Positions 7,607 to 41,219 of a DNA stretch of 64,000 nucleotides are shown one piece after another (positions within the stretch are counted from its first letter, which is position 1; the number at the start of each line of letters is the position of its first letter). The translations under genes and the position numbers were made by a program. The notes under the pieces were generated by a model. The model was not told where the DNA came from. It made no database searches and worked only from the letters and a program-made list of their open reading frames with translations. The stretch comes from a virus, in IMG/VR virus record IMGVR_UViG_3300021963_000057, positions 40,627-104,626 of that record; one strand, given 5' to 3'.

Positions 7607-7946
7607 AATTTTACGTTTAAAAGATGGTCTGGATATAATCTGTGACTGCATTTTTGAAAAAGATAACAAAGTGGTGATTGACAATCCCATGTTGTTTGAA
7701 CTCAGAGGCATGAATCTGGTATTGCAATACTGGTTACCAATGGCCGTAATGAAAGGTGAATCTGTTGAGATGAGAATGGATAACATTCTCTGCACGATGG
7801 ATCCAACCGATGATTTTGAAGAATACTATTCAATGTCTGTTATTAGATTGAAAGACTCTGAGAGAAAAGAAAGAGAAGTGGATCTCAACGATGAGATACT
7901 AGCAGCTTTCGAAGAAAAGGAAATTGGTAAATCCTTAATACATTAA
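7596..7946 (+). CDS. Small Lsm-like protein, paralogue of the 33221 gene
   Basis: 116-residue protein of a family widespread in T4-like marine phages and lacking known function. The N-terminus (VKILRLKDGLDII) followed by a short beta-rich core looks like an Sm/Lsm-type small barrel. It shares with the 33221 protein an L-x-x-G-x-(D/E)-(I/L)-I start, a V-I-x-N-P motif, and a P-x-x-DF-x-x-Y motif near the end, so I read the two as paralogues. It overlaps uvsW by 11 bases and is probably translationally coupled. The Lsm assignment is a fold guess. Confidence 0.65.
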   Translation: MAVKILRLKDGLDIICDCIFEKDNKVVIDNPMLFELRGMNLVLQYWLPMAVMKGESVEMRMDNILCTMDPTDDFEEYYSMSVIRLKDSERKEREVDLNDEILAAFEEKEIGKSLIH

Positions 7947-7963
7947 TATCATAGGGGGACACC

Positions 7964-8026
7964 GTGGACTATATCACATGTCAAGCCCTTTGTCAACAAC
8001 TTTTTATGGTACATTTGAATGAGTAA
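7964..8026 (+). CDS. Possible 20-codon leader peptide before gene 55
   Basis: GTG start preceded by a near-perfect AGGGGGA ribosome site. The reading frame of 20 codons ends at a TAA that overlaps the first bases of gene 55. Gene 55 itself has no visible ribosome site, so reinitiation from this leader would explain its translation. A second 14-codon frame (ATG 7978) also ends in ATGA at the gene 55 start. Coding status is unproven. Confidence 0.4.
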   Translation: MDYITCQALCQQLFMVHLNE

Positions 8027-8564
8027 ACAGAAACATTATATAAACAATGCAGACTTCCTAAAGGCACTTGTCGATTACAAGACCAGATGCGTAGAGGCCG
8101 AACAGGCTGGCAAACCAAAACCAAACATTCCCAATTACATTGGTGAATGCTTTATGAAAATTGCCGAAGGTCTATCACACAAACCAAACTTCATCAACTA
8201 CACTTACCGTGACGAAATGATTTCCGATGGTATTGAAAACTGCTTGATGTACTTTGAGAACTTTGACCCGTCTAAGTCTAACAATCCATTTGCCTATTTT
8301 ACACAAGTTATCTACTTTGCATTCCTACGTAGAATACAAAAAGAAAAGAAACAACTATACGTCAAGTACAAGGCCACAGAGATGTATGGTATTCTGGATG
8401 AATTTGAAATGTTAGAATCGGAAGATGGTAGTACCAAACAATTCGAACTATATGAAAATATTGCAGAGTTCATTGAAACATATGAAGATGCCAGAAAAAC
8501 TAAGAAGGCTGGCAAAGACGCTGCAAAGAAACCAAAAGGGCTTGAAAAATTTATTGAGGAGTGA
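8019..8564 (+). CDS. 55: Late sigma factor gp55
   Basis: 181 residues, matching T4 gp55 (185), the highly diverged sigma factor that recognises TATAAATA late promoters and works with the gp45 sliding clamp. The core block with DEMISDGIENCL, YFENFDPSKSNNPFAYFTQ and the following RRIQKEKKQ is the conserved sigma region 2-like part. A Lys-rich tail follows. The start has no obvious Shine-Dalgarno and overlaps short upstream reading frames (7964-8026), suggesting coupled translation. Late promoters in this window fit its specificity. Confidence 0.95.
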   Translation: MSKQKHYINNADFLKALVDYKTRCVEAEQAGKPKPNIPNYIGECFMKIAEGLSHKPNFINYTYRDEMISDGIENCLMYFENFDPSKSNNPFAYFTQVIYFAFLRRIQKEKKQLYVKYKATEMYGILDEFEMLESEDGSTKQFELYENIAEFIETYEDARKTKKAGKDAAKKPKGLEKFIEE

Positions 8565-23535: not shown

Positions 23536-23627
23536 GGAAGATGATGCAGCGGGGATGGTCCTGCGACTGGCCTTGAAAACCAGGTTCTCAGAAATGGGAT
23601 GGGGTTCGACTCCTCCGTCTTCCGCCA
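23536..23627 (+). tRNA. tRNA-Ser (TGA)
   Basis: Class II cloverleaf with long variable arm, anticodon loop CTTGAAA, discriminator G and encoded CCA. Confidence 0.93.
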
Positions 23628-23726: not shown

Positions 23727-23818
23727 GCCAGCGAGACTGGGTAGTCAGAGAGGTCTTATACACCTTTTAGCGCCAGATTAGCGTTCTTGAGTGAGTTCGA
23801 GTCTCACCGCTGGTACCA
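23727..23818 (+). tRNA. Class II tRNA with anticodon TAT (Ile or Leu-like)
   Basis: 92 bases. Acceptor GCCAGCG/CGCTGGT, good T arm, encoded ACCA and a five-base-pair variable arm (AGCGC/GCGTT). Anticodon loop reads CTTATAC, that is UAU, which would decode AUA. A long variable arm is foreign to tRNA-Ile, so identity is uncertain. Confidence 0.75.
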
Positions 23819-24867: not shown

Positions 24868-24930
24868 AGGATCGGTTCAGCAATAAACAAGCTAACTTTG
24901 GATGTCTAGCGACAAAAACGATCCTGTTGT
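24868..24930 (+). ncRNA. Structured element E4 (family A)
   Basis: Terminal stem AGGATCG (24868-24874) with CGATCCT (24919-24925), followed by GTTGT. CAGCAA lies just inside the 5' arm. The interior has a GCTAAC/GT(C)TAGC hairpin with seven-base loop TTTGGAT, which looks like an anticodon loop for Pro (UGG). The next gene is tRNA-Pro (TGG). No T arm. Confidence 0.55.
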
Positions 24931-25339: not shown

Positions 25340-25404
25340 AGGATAGTAACAGCAACTAAAATACTTCAAACTTGTAACTTGAAAAGTAAAATCTATCCTG
25401 TTGT
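25340..25404 (+). ncRNA. Structured element E5 (family A)
   Basis: Stem AGGATAG (25340-25346) with CTATCCT (25393-25399), then GTTGT. ACAGCAA lies inside the 5' arm. The inner hairpin ACTTCAA/TTG(A)AAGT carries a loop containing CTTGTAA, an anticodon-like sequence (UGU, Thr). Lies between tRNA-Ile and tRNA-Trp. Confidence 0.55.
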
Positions 25405-25483: not shown

Positions 25484-25512
25484 GTGTTAGTAAAAAAAGA
25501 AAGGTGATTGAT

Positions 25513-26001
25513 ATGAAAAAGTTCGACATACAAGAAGTTAAGCAATTCCTTGCAAGTCAAGGACCAGATACGAAAGTATATTTGGGTGCTGACTCAGAAC
25601 GTATCCGTGTAAACGGTGTATGGTATGCAGACTATGCTTTGGCTGTCGTAGTTCATATTGATGGCCGCCATGGTTGTAAGATTTTTGGTTTCGTTCAACG
25701 TGAGTTGGACTATGACCACAAGAAAAGTAAACCTGCAATGCGGTTAATGACCGAAGTGTATAAGGTTTCAGAATTGTTCCAAGACTTGGCTGATGTATTA
25801 GAAGATTTCCATGTTGAAGTTCATTTGGACTTAAACAAAGATGACTTGTACGGAAGTTCATGTGTTGTACAACAAGCGATTGGTTATATCAAGGGTACAT
25901 GTAACATGACACCTATGGTTAAACCAGACGCACCAGCTGCAAGTTTCTGTGCTGACAGATTGAAAAGAATCTTGGCAGAACAAGAAGCTTTGCAGGTCTA
26001 A
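25513..26001 (+). CDS. RNase H-like fold protein (YkuK/DUF458-like)
   Basis: 162 residues. The first strand pair VYLGADSERI with conserved Asp, an HLDLNKDD segment and a C-terminal helix follow the pattern of the YkuK/DUF458 predicted RNase H-like nucleases found in bacteria and phages. ATG 25513 is preceded by AAGGTG. Lying inside a tRNA array, it may act on RNA, but that is inference from context. No membrane or signal segment. Confidence 0.7.
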   Translation: MKKFDIQEVKQFLASQGPDTKVYLGADSERIRVNGVWYADYALAVVVHIDGRHGCKIFGFVQRELDYDHKKSKPAMRLMTEVYKVSELFQDLADVLEDFHVEVHLDLNKDDLYGSSCVVQQAIGYIKGTCNMTPMVKPDAPAASFCADRLKRILAEQEALQV

Positions 26002-26472: not shown

Positions 26473-26574
26473 AGGATAGGTTCAGCAAAAAATTCACATG
26501 CGAATGGTTCGCAATTTGCCTTTTAAGCAAACCTTGTGGGTTCAATTCCCACTGTAAAAAAACTATCCTGTTGT
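26473..26574 (+). ncRNA. Structured element E6 (family A) with tRNA-Lys-like interior
   Basis: Stem AGGATAG (26473-26479) with CTATCCT (26563-26569), then GTTGT; TTCAGCAA follows the 5' arm. Inside is a near-complete tRNA-like cloverleaf: short D-like arm (26499-26513), anticodon arm TTTGC-CTTTTAA-GCAAA (26515-26531, UUU), T arm GTGGG-TTCAATT-CCCAC (26536-26552) and an imperfect acceptor-like helix TTCACA/TGTAAA. There is no free CCA end, so it looks like a tRNA mimic. Confidence 0.65.
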
Positions 26575-28103: not shown

Positions 28104-28132
28104 TTGACTACAACAAATTTTTGTGTTATACT
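28104..28132 (+). promoter_or_regulatory. Promoter of the Ro-like unit
   Basis: TTGACT (28104-28109), 17-base spacer, TATACT (28127-28132). TACAAC lies exactly seven bases before the -35, as at the two boxA promoters. The spacer contains CTACAACAAATTTTT, the reverse complement of the last part of the boxA leaders. Confidence 0.75.
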
Positions 28133-28161: not shown

Positions 28162-28318
28162 AGGTTAGTTACAGCATTATTCATTAATACTGGACTGTTA
28201 GGTAACTATGGTAAATGCTGGAGGTTTCGACCTTTGAAGGTGTTTATTGAAATAGTCCTAACAAAGGTGAGTTTCGATTTTCTCACTGTAAACAAAAAGT
28301 AGAAAGCTAACCTGTTGT
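28162..28318 (+). ncRNA. Structured element E7 (family A), first RNA of the Ro-like unit
   Basis: Stem AGGTTAG (28162-28168) with CTAACCT (28307-28313), then GTTGT. ACAGCA follows the 5' arm. The interior is larger than in other copies: a CAGCATT/AATGCTG helix, a TGTTAGG/CCTAACA helix, and a T-arm-like hairpin GTGAG-TTTCGAT...-CTCAC. No reading frame. It is transcribed ahead of the DUF2828 protein. Confidence 0.6.
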
Positions 28319-28322
28319 TTTT

Positions 28323-28443
28323 AGAATACTCACAGCAAACAATTTTTCCGCTTATAACGGAGAGGTTACAGGTTCGAATCCTGTTTTACGCTTCATGCGT
28401 GAATAGCACAATTGGTAGTGCGCTAAAAAATGTATTCTGTTGT
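28323..28443 (+). ncRNA. Structured element E8 (family A) holding a permuted tRNA-Ile (TAT)
   Basis: Outer stem AGAATAC (28323-28329) with GTATTCT (28432-28438), then GTTGT. Inside, in this order: anticodon arm TTCCG-CTTATAA-CGGAG (28346-28362), variable AGGTT, T arm ACAGG-TTCGAAT-CCTGT (28368-28384), acceptor 3' strand TTTACGC (28385-28391), linker TTCAT, acceptor 5' strand GCGTGAA (28397-28403), TA and D arm GCAC-AATTGGTA-GTGC (28406-28421). All four helices are complete, but the 3' half precedes the 5' half. It is either a circularly permuted tRNA gene or a Y-RNA-like tRNA mimic. Confidence 0.8.
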
Positions 28444-28463
28444 TTTTTTATGAGGAGTAAGTT

Positions 28464-29891
28464 ATGTCAACTTTTGTAGATGCCGTTGTTAATCAAGATG
28501 CCCGTACCGCAAACGGTATGAAGGCTCGTAAGTCCACTGCTAATGCAGTTGTAGATTTGTTCTACAATGCAGGTGCTTCACGTGGTAAAAACATTGTGCC
28601 TGCTTTTGCAGCTGCAATGGCAGAAAACCGTGAACTCGCTTTGCGTGTTGCTGCTTGGTTGCGTGATGCTCGTGGTGGTGCCGGTGAACGTGAATCGTTC
28701 CGTACTATCTTGCGTTATTTGGAAAAGAATGACGTAGAAGCCGCAAAAGCATTGTTGACAAAGGTTCCTGAATTGGGCCGTTGGGACGACATTTTTGTAT
28801 TTGATTCTGACGTTATGAAGTCAGCAGCATTCACTATGTTGGGTGATGCGCTTCGTGCGAAGAATGGATTAGCTGCAAAGTGGACTCCTCGCCAAGGTAA
28901 ACTAGCGGCTGAAATCCGTCAGTTCTTTGGTATGTCCCCAAAGTTTTACCGTAAGTCTTTGGTTGAAATGACCAAAGTAGTTGAAACTCAAATGTGTGCG
29001 AAAGATTGGGATTCCATTAATTTCTCACACGTACCTTCCGTAGCGGCATCCCGTTACAAGAAGGCTTTTAATCGTAACACTCCAACTTATGCAGCTTATG
29101 TTGCTTCGTTGGTTAAGGGTGATAACCCTGAAGTTAAGGTTAATGCAGGTGCTGTGTTCCCATACGATGTGCTGAAAGGCCGTATCGGTGGTTACATTAA
29201 ATTCGACAAGACCGAATTGGACTTGGTGCAAAAACAATGGGAGGCTTTGCCTAACTTTGTTGGTGACGCAAACATTCTACCTTTGGTGGATGTTTCAGGT
29301 TCAATGACCTGCGCTGCAGGTGGTTATGGTTCCAAATCAGGTCTAACCTGTTTGGAAGTAGCAGTCTCTTTGGGACTATACTTGGCAGATAAGAATGAAG
29401 GCAAGTTCAAGGACACCTTCCTAACTTTCTCTGACAAACCAGAATTGTTGCACTTGAAAGGTAACATTAACCAAAAGATTGACCAAATGGTTAAATCTGA
29501 TTGGGGTATGTCTACTAACCTACACAAGGCGTTTGAAAGAATCCTTGATGTAGCAGTAAAAGGTGGCGTGCCACAAGAAGAAATGCCAGCGATGGTATTG
29601 ATTCTGTCAGACATGCAATTTAACGCTTGCGTTAGACATGATGACTCTGCTATGCAGATGATTGCACGTAAGTACAAAGAAGCAGGATATGATTTGCCAA
29701 AAGTTGTATTCTGGAACTTGAATGCCGCATACGGCAACGCTCCAGTAAAGTTCGATACTTCTGGTACTGCATTGGTATCTGGTTTCTCACCAGCAGTCGT
29801 AAAACCACTGTTGGCTGGTGACCTAGAAACCTTTACACCAGAATCTGTGATGCTTAAAACCATCATGGATGACCGTTACAAAGTATTGTGA
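28464..29891 (+). CDS. DUF2828 protein, TROVE-VWA (Ro60-like)
   Basis: 475 residues. Residues 20-240 carry the DUF2828 hallmarks: LRDARGGAGER (66-76), GRWDD (105-109), AKW at 138-140, a FYRKSL...VVETQMCAKDW stretch and VPSVAASRY. This helical-repeat region is related to the TROVE domain of Ro60, a ring-shaped RNA-binding protein. The C-terminal half is a von Willebrand A domain with the MIDAS motif DVSGS (276-280). In bacteria, Ro (Rsr) binds Y RNAs, some of which mimic tRNA. Here two structured RNAs, one with a whole tRNA fold, precede the gene on the same transcript. GAGGAG ribosome site; terminator follows. Confidence 0.82.
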   Translation: MSTFVDAVVNQDARTANGMKARKSTANAVVDLFYNAGASRGKNIVPAFAAAMAENRELALRVAAWLRDARGGAGERESFRTILRYLEKNDVEAAKALLTKVPELGRWDDIFVFDSDVMKSAAFTMLGDALRAKNGLAAKWTPRQGKLAAEIRQFFGMSPKFYRKSLVEMTKVVETQMCAKDWDSINFSHVPSVAASRYKKAFNRNTPTYAAYVASLVKGDNPEVKVNAGAVFPYDVLKGRIGGYIKFDKTELDLVQKQWEALPNFVGDANILPLVDVSGSMTCAAGGYGSKSGLTCLEVAVSLGLYLADKNEGKFKDTFLTFSDKPELLHLKGNINQKIDQMVKSDWGMSTNLHKAFERILDVAVKGGVPQEEMPAMVLILSDMQFNACVRHDDSAMQMIARKYKEAGYDLPKVVFWNLNAAYGNAPVKFDTSGTALVSGFSPAVVKPLLAGDLETFTPESVMLKTIMDDRYKVL

Positions 29892-40116: not shown

Positions 40117-41219
40117 AATTAGAATTTAATGATGCAGTACATTGTGCCAAAGTATTTGAAGATTACTTTGGTAACTTTGACCGTATTGATGAATATATGC
40201 GTGACCAGAAGTTGAATTCTCTGGCTGAACTTCCAGCCAATCCATTGTTTCCAATTGAAGATGAGTTATTTCAAGACTTCACAATGAAACCGGAAGATAT
40301 GGATTTTGAAGTTGTTGAGATTGATACCGAAACATGGACCAATCTATTGAACATCACTTCATCACATGTGAATATTCCACCAGTTGGTCGTAATGTCAAA
40401 GTGGCAGTACGTGAGAAGAACACAGGAAAGTACGTAGGTTTCATCCGTCTTGGTTCACCTGTAATCAACTGTAAACCTCGTAATGAATTGCTTGGACAAG
40501 TGTTTACACAAAAACCTGAGTGGGGTAAACGATTCAACAACTCTGCAATGATGGGTTTTGTTATCGTACCTGCACAACCATTTGGTTATAATTATCTTGG
40601 TGGTAAACTTCTGGCTGCAATCTGTACGTCACATGAAGTACGTGAGATTGTGAATAAGAAGTATGGTATGAATTTATGTTTGTTTGAGACTACCAGTTTG
40701 TATGGTAGTTCTAAGACTGTATCTCAATATGATGGTATGAAACCATATATCAGATATAAAGGTCTGACAGATTCTGATTTTCTGCCGATGATGCACGGTA
40801 AACCTTATTCAGACCTACGTGATTTCGTGCAGGATAAAGTCGGACCTTTGGTTGAAGATGATGCTTCTAGTAAGAAACTAAAAATCTCCATGAAGATTAT
40901 ATCACTTACTAAAGCAGCACTTAAAGGTACACCTGAAGGGGATACATTCTTAGCAACGATTGAGAAGGCCAAGGGGTTGACAGAACAAAAAAGATATTAC
41001 ATTAGTGATTATGGTTTCAGTAACATGGTCGACTATGTAAATTGTAAGACGGACGTGCTTATTCCTGGTGAAAATTATGAGAAACACAATCTGGTAAACT
41101 TGATTGAATGGTGGAGGAAAAAGGCTTGTAATCGGTATGAAACATTGTATAATGAAAACCGTTTGAAGAATGAACTTGAAATTTGGACTTCCGGAAAGGA
41201 GATCCAAATTATAAGATAA
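40113..41219 (+). CDS. DUF4338-like protein, paralogue of the 12378 gene
   Basis: 368 residues. PAQPFGYNYLGGKLLAAIC, KKYGMN, TTSLYG and SQYDGMKP align with the 12378 protein in order and spacing, while the ends differ. Fused neither to helicase nor nuclease. It overlaps gene 41 by four bases and ends near a late promoter. Same remote resemblance to DUF4338. Confidence 0.6.
   Translation: MKLEFNDAVHCAKVFEDYFGNFDRIDEYMRDQKLNSLAELPANPLFPIEDELFQDFTMKPEDMDFEVVEIDTETWTNLLNITSSHVNIPPVGRNVKVAVREKNTGKYVGFIRLGSPVINCKPRNELLGQVFTQKPEWGKRFNNSAMMGFVIVPAQPFGYNYLGGKLLAAICTSHEVREIVNKKYGMNLCLFETTSLYGSSKTVSQYDGMKPYIRYKGLTDSDFLPMMHGKPYSDLRDFVQDKVGPLVEDDASSKKLKISMKIISLTKAALKGTPEGDTFLATIEKAKGLTEQKRYYISDYGFSNMVDYVNCKTDVLIPGENYEKHNLVNLIEWWRKKACNRYETLYNENRLKNELEIWTSGKEIQIIR

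Follow-up and report, generated by a model that had tools for sequence, protein, structure and literature searches.

A probable YrlA-type Y RNA with a permuted tRNA-like body beside a Ro60-like gene of a T4-like phage

In YrlA, a basal stem binds Rsr and a transfer RNA (tRNA)-like domain binds PNPase (reviewed in PMC8394870), and its published structure (6CU1) can be superposed on tRNA if the chain is read as circularly permuted (PMC11472068). Phages encode related systems: Y RNAs have been reported for mycobacteriophages in work cited by PMC12282133, in Listeria phage CKA15 three apparently non-coding regions that are transcribed at very high levels lie upstream of a Ro60-like gene and were suggested to be Y RNAs, with the Ro60-like protein detected in purified particles (PMC12282133), and a Ro60 structure is available from Thermus phage phiLo (9l5y). 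The studies of these phage systems that we found do not describe the topologies of tRNA-like modules. Here we examine a window of 64,000 nucleotides (nt) from the viral record IMGVR_UViG_3300021963_000057 (positions 40,627 to 104,626 of a record that spans 104,626 bases), whose matches to phage major head protein, DNA polymerase, UvsX, clamp loader, helicases, an SbcC-like nuclease subunit and primase mark it as T4-like. An RNA element at 28323-28438 on its plus strand carries every arm of a tRNA in permuted order and, as in the phage systems above, lies with a Ro60-like gene near tRNA genes. We consider it very probable that the phage encodes here a YrlA-type Y RNA that partners its own Ro60-like protein.

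Fold and covariation of the element

The chain runs from an outer stem through an anticodon-like arm, a T arm, an acceptor hairpin with its 3' strand first, and a D arm back to the outer stem. The outer stem, a putative Ro60-binding stem, consists of seven base pairs between AGAATAC (28323-28329) and GTATTCT (28432-28438), and the 5' and 3' ends of the RNA are thus paired as a basal stem. Its 5' strand is followed by a CAGCAA motif (28333-28338) that is invariant in the homologue alignment (columns 10-15), and its 3' strand by a conserved UGUU and a run of U. Between the strands lie the anticodon-like arm TTTTCCG-CTTATAA-CGGAGAG (28344-28364), whose loop CUUAUAA carries the triplet UAU at 28353-28355 together with U33 and A37; the T arm ACAGG-UUCGAAU-CCUGU (28368-28384); the acceptor-like hairpin UUUACGC-UUCAU-GCGUGAA (28385-28403), in which the loop TTCAT joins the 3' strand (28385-28391) to the 5' strand (28397-28403); and the D arm GCAC-AAUUGGUA-GUGC (28406-28421). 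All are on the plus strand. A preliminary description of this DNA had proposed a complete and fully paired set of tRNA parts in this order, an acceptor closed by TTCAT, and an outer stem attached at the D/anticodon junction; the predicted fold reproduces that account exactly, and every arm is present in both the minimum-energy and the centroid structures. The fold reaches −35 kcal/mol (z = −3.45 against dinucleotide shuffles), a value equalled by 1 of 200 shuffles. ARAGORN makes no call at 28323-28438 because the arm order is permuted. The minus strand of the region folds as well, which is expected of a tRNA-like sequence, but the module motifs described below are confined to the plus strand.

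Comparative evidence comes mainly from a sequence-based alignment of 15 homologues of the element, in which 97.3% of pair cells hold standard pairs and two-sided changes number 75, against 24.5 ± 4.1 in shuffled alignments and at most 17 when the pairing partners are slid. Compensatory change is found at 6 of 7 pairs of the acceptor hairpin, 5 of 7 of the anticodon arm, 3 of 5 of the T arm, 1 of 4 of the D arm and 3 of 6 of the outer stem. The preliminary description had held that a lack of such changes in the acceptor, D and T helices would tell against it, and all of these helices contain compensatory pairs. We relied on the alignment-based tests instead of a separate stem-by-stem table, which is biased by a parser that requires pairing. 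A direct DNA search of phage records with the 121-nt element returned no match.

Resemblance to YrlA and linkage to a Ro60-like gene

The YrlA model of Rfam (RF02553) matches the window at 28336-28449, end to end over the full model, with 35.7 bits and an E-value of 1.7e-5. Like RF02553 and Salmonella YrlA (6CU1), the phage element has a basal stem followed by a T arm, a closed acceptor hairpin and a D arm, and a Ro60 gene is adjacent. Unlike YrlA, it places a complete anticodon arm before the T arm, its Ro stem has the sequence AGGNNA..CAGCAA/..CCUGUU, and phage genomes of this kind carry several Y RNAs interspersed with tRNA genes, 4 to 5 each in the window phage and its relatives, spread through the tRNA cluster. 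Three points count against a Y RNA of this type: the score is below the RF02553 gathering score of 69 bits, the Ro-stem sequence departs from the consensus, and that consensus has no full anticodon arm. None of these phage Y RNAs is detected by Rfam at the gathering threshold, and the model is narrow, since it gives scores of 31.9-52.7 to further YrlA-like RNAs of viruses that are linked to Ro60. The element is YrlA-like, and we do not call it a member of RF02553.

The Ro60-like gene, which the preliminary description did not mention, begins 26 nt after the element (28464-29891, plus strand) and encodes a protein of 475 amino acids. The protein matches phrog_850, "RNA-binding protein", with an E-value of 3e-140, and the Pfam domains DUF2828 and DUF7788. 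The best structural matches of its predicted model (9kop, 9l5y, 9nen, 1yvp and 2nvo) comprise a TROVE domain, the Ro60 of Thermus phage phiLo, human Ro60, Ro autoantigen and Deinococcus Rsr; Z is 16.5 and 14.7 for TROVE/Ro60 structures and then 12.7 for human Ro60. With moderate confidence, residues 27-475 of the model align (Z 16.5) to the TROVE ring of HEAT repeats and its vWA domain. This assignment is weakened by the quality of the model (predicted local distance difference test, pLDDT, 68; predicted template modelling score, pTM, 0.55), by a sequence search of the Protein Data Bank (PDB) that returned no match, and by the failure of Pfam TROVE (PF05731) to match the window protein at 1e-3. 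In other viral contigs, phrog_850 and PF05731 match the same frames. A hidden Markov model built from close relatives was too narrow for TROVE-like neighbours, and we used phrog_850 and PF05731 in its place. Of 50,697 phage records, at least 672 contain a Ro60-like gene, Felix O1 and KVP40 among them.

We defined a Ro-stem module as a stem of six pairs whose 5' strand is followed by CAGCA or CCGCA and that has CCTG or TCTG at its 3' strand. In all 72 relatives with enough upstream sequence, at least one such module lies in the 500 nt preceding the Ro60-like gene (mean about 2), against none in minus-strand and reversed controls and 0.07% in shuffles. Over the 13.5-kb tRNA-cluster stretch of the window and 20 corresponding regions of relatives, 96 modules share the strand of the gene and 4 are on the opposite one. 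The association also emerges from a scan blind to the protein, in which contigs with a T arm followed by a D arm, the permuted order, were sorted according to self-pairing of the acceptor between the two arms: phrog_850 was present in 20 of 24 contigs chosen mainly for a self-pairing acceptor and in 3 of 24 without acceptor pairing, which are ordinary tandem tRNAs. Most modules with a self-pairing acceptor lie within 1.4 kb of a Ro60-like gene and on the same strand. An exact closed-Ro-stem pattern found no match in viral contigs because the Ro stem varies, and among the published phages sampled the stem rule finds modules in most, not all. With the Rfam match, the adjacent Ro60-like gene and an association found in all relatives tested, the tRNA-mimic Y RNA that the preliminary description offered as one of two readings gains clear support.

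Proposed role and competing explanations

If the element works as Y RNAs do elsewhere, the outer stem, the CAGCAA internal-loop strand and the UGUU flank would form a Ro60-binding module and the tRNA-like domain an effector-binding module. The RNA looks permuted because its chain ends lie in the Ro stem and leave the tRNA body at the D/anticodon junction, with the acceptor closed by a loop; an RNA with such ends and such an acceptor is therefore expected to be tRNA-folded, perhaps tRNA-modified in the way that YrlA-type RNAs bear D and pseudouridine, and neither CCA-tailed nor aminoacylated. In the mechanism that we infer from the computed fold, covariation, gene association and protein fold, the RNA would be expressed and held, as would RNAs of the other topologies described below, by the phage Ro60 ring gripping the stem, while the tRNA-like end would recruit or imitate a tRNA-binding partner, either PNPase or another exoribonuclease, or else a nuclease of the phage. 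The outcome would be that RNA turnover or repair is steered during infection or that the Ro60 channel is gated. The closest precedent is the Rsr-Y RNA-PNPase complex (RYPER) of Deinococcus radiodurans, with which this locus shares a Ro60-like protein, an adjacent Y RNA, for which a tether role is proposed there, and the structural match 2nvo; unlike in RYPER, the phage protein belongs to the DUF2828/phrog_850 branch. On this analogy, we put a tether between Ro60 and an RNA-processing partner at roughly an even chance.

A different role, compatible with the same Y RNA identity, is that of a decoy: the tRNA-like RNA could titrate or inhibit host defences that target tRNAs, anticodon nucleases for instance, while Ro60 shields or displays it. 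The complete anticodon arm with its U-turn-type loop and many triplets would suit such a role, as would a location within a cluster of 28 tRNAs, and YrlA has been proposed as a possible competitive inhibitor of an anticodon nuclease (PMC7790460). Salmonella YrlA is not cleaved (PMC7790460), which fits an inhibitor and not a substrate decoy, and some homologues, L074 among them, have no anticodon arm. We regard a decoy as unlikely, if still a serious candidate, and what probability it and the tether leave falls to gating or other roles.

The placement of the element 26 nt ahead of the start codon, the run of U that follows the stem, and the modules immediately upstream in 72 of 72 relatives could also mean that the stem is the leader of the Ro60 messenger RNA, controlling its translation or stability, and not a separate RNA. 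Against such a leader, modules also occur up to 3.6 kb upstream between tRNA genes, in 4 to 5 copies per phage, and permuted modules can lie kilobases from the gene or, in G021, downstream of it. A purely cis-acting role is accordingly improbable.

Permuted tRNA genes exist in some algae and archaea, and they have the tRNA halves in reversed order, as here. On this model, the acceptor loop would be cut, trimmed and CCA-tailed and the gap between D and anticodon arms joined, giving tRNA-Ile(UAU). The presence of every tRNA arm, the covarying pairs, the U33/A37 anticodon loop and a relative in phage S13 (L207 7155-7287) that retains GACCA in its acceptor loop all speak for it. The acceptor of the window element ends in the TTCAT loop, however, and in homologues L004, L005, L112, L059 and L215 the loops are UUCG (L004 and L005), UCAU, AGU or UUU; with 3-4 nt there is no room for NCCA, and no acceptor end able to carry CCA could be recognised. 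In L006 and L014, Ro-stem modules retain T and D arms and have no clear acceptor stem. The preliminary identification as Ile(UAU) likewise gives way, since 20 seven-base anticodon-like loops hold 14 different triplets; these loops keep U33 (18 of 20), a purine at 37 (20 of 20) and A38 (20 of 20), and it is their shape that is conserved, not a codon meaning. A separate candidate tRNA-Ile(UAU) is already present at 23727-23818, and the outer stem of the element is conserved and linked to the Ro60-like gene. Unlike in the algal and archaeal genes, neither a mature CCA end nor joining of halves is expected, and the break falls at the D/anticodon junction, where the Ro stem is attached. We consider a true permuted tRNA gene very unlikely. 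The candidate tRNA-Ile(UAU) has an unusual long variable arm, and beside it, at 23536-23623, is a weak tRNA-Sec-like match.

Although T4-like phages contain many tRNA remnants, a chance fold or functionless degenerate pseudo-tRNA is refuted by the covariation, and the association in 72 of 72 relatives and the 96 to 4 strand bias leave it next to no probability.

Other Ro-stem RNAs and chain topologies

Applied to both strands of the window, the module rule yields five RNAs, every one of them on the plus strand. Two are small Ro-stem RNAs, one between tRNA-Asn and tRNA-Pro (24869-24924) and one between tRNA-Ile(GAU) and tRNA-Trp (25341-25398). At 26474-26568, a Ro-stem RNA of 95 nt carries a tRNA-like domain on a short acceptor stem, with D, anticodon (UUU-like) and T arms in canonical order; Rfam tRNA matches within it above threshold (26492-26560, 36.3 bits), and across seven homologues of this type two-sided changes total 31, where shuffles give 8.5 ± 2.3 and slid partners at most 5. 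Together with the permuted element, it means that one genome holds two tRNA mimics mounted differently on a Ro stem.

Directly upstream of the element, by module rule and fold, is a Ro-stem RNA with a large branched domain (28163-28312, GGUUAG...CUAACC-UGUU). This type, here and in many relatives, has a conserved hairpin GUGAG-UUUCGAUUU-CUCAC, whose loop resembles a T loop. A second long type occurs in L007, L010, L016 and L042 (CCAGAAAAUAAAUUAC...CAUCCAG), and an Rfam search gave no family for either long type. A consensus match to an extended −10, sigma-70-like promoter (TTGACT-17-TATACT, 28104-28132, plus strand) likely marks, on its sequence, the start of the Y RNA/Ro60 transcript, in a scan where such sites are no more numerous than in shuffles. 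Within the tRNA/Y RNA cluster, 25504-26001 encodes an RNase H-like protein (PF04308); in KVP40 the gene for its counterpart immediately follows the one for the Ro60-like protein, which makes the window protein a possible candidate for the partner nuclease.

Beyond the permuted form with closed acceptor (28323-28438) and the canonical-order form with the Ro stem at the acceptor end (26474-26568), a third topology, found mostly in T4-like phages, has the Ro stem inside a tRNA of ordinary order with a free acceptor and usually an encoded CCA. The inserted Ro-stem-like hairpin lies in the D/anticodon region, usually with a C-UGANAA-G loop followed by CAGCA or CUGCA. There are about nine CCA-ended examples, among them over-long or pseudo tRNAs with a full cloverleaf and inserted hairpin in Cronobacter S13 (L207 6896-7138), Citrobacter Ci1 (L203 ~7890-8128), KVP40 (L211 5382-5628 and 7179-7294) and Aeromonas AsFcp_1 (L218 9936-10055) and LAh_6 (L208 2506-2633). 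Those of S13 are annotated as tRNA-Ser (121 nt) and tRNA-OTHER (113 nt), and those of KVP40 as "pseudo-tRNAs". Up to details, the CCA-ended forms are circular permutations of the window element. The S13 RNA with GACCA in its acceptor loop is itself permuted like the window element, and this relic suggests that permuted Y RNAs possibly derive from tandem tRNA genes. The permuted form is also present near the Ro60-like genes of Felix O1 and a Klebsiella phage, and in Listeria phage LP-125 three small Ro-stem RNAs immediately precede the Ro60-like gene; these RNAs presumably correspond to the transcribed regions of CKA15. In another contig, L155 6477-6635 is a permuted transfer-messenger RNA (RF04321), and the same contig has a permuted YrlA-like RNA and a Ro60-like gene.

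The claim of the preliminary description that such an RNA is new for a T4-like phage stands in part. YrlA as a tRNA permutation (PMC11472068) and phage Y RNAs, including those of mycobacteriophages, are already known, and the related elements of KVP40 and S13 were annotated under odd or pseudo tRNA names. What may be new, provisionally, are the covarying complete anticodon arm, the arrays of Y RNAs in phage tRNA clusters and the coexisting topologies; an open literature search, which did not extend to the primary Y RNA papers, gave no description of these or of CCA-ended forms.

It is about as probable as its opposite that phages maintain a single composite RNA, a tRNA body joined to a Ro60-binding stem, and build it in at least three chain topologies, with selection acting on the three-dimensional particle and not on the order of its parts. 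If so, the forms that end in CCA could direct Ro60 towards charged or repaired tRNAs, and natural topological isomers of one tRNA-like particle would offer a clean experiment on recognition by Ro60 and its partner. The RNA partners of phage Ro60-like proteins are mostly unannotated or filed as odd tRNAs, and with a simple stem rule for finding Ro-stem RNAs, laboratory phages can be used to test what phage Ro60 does.
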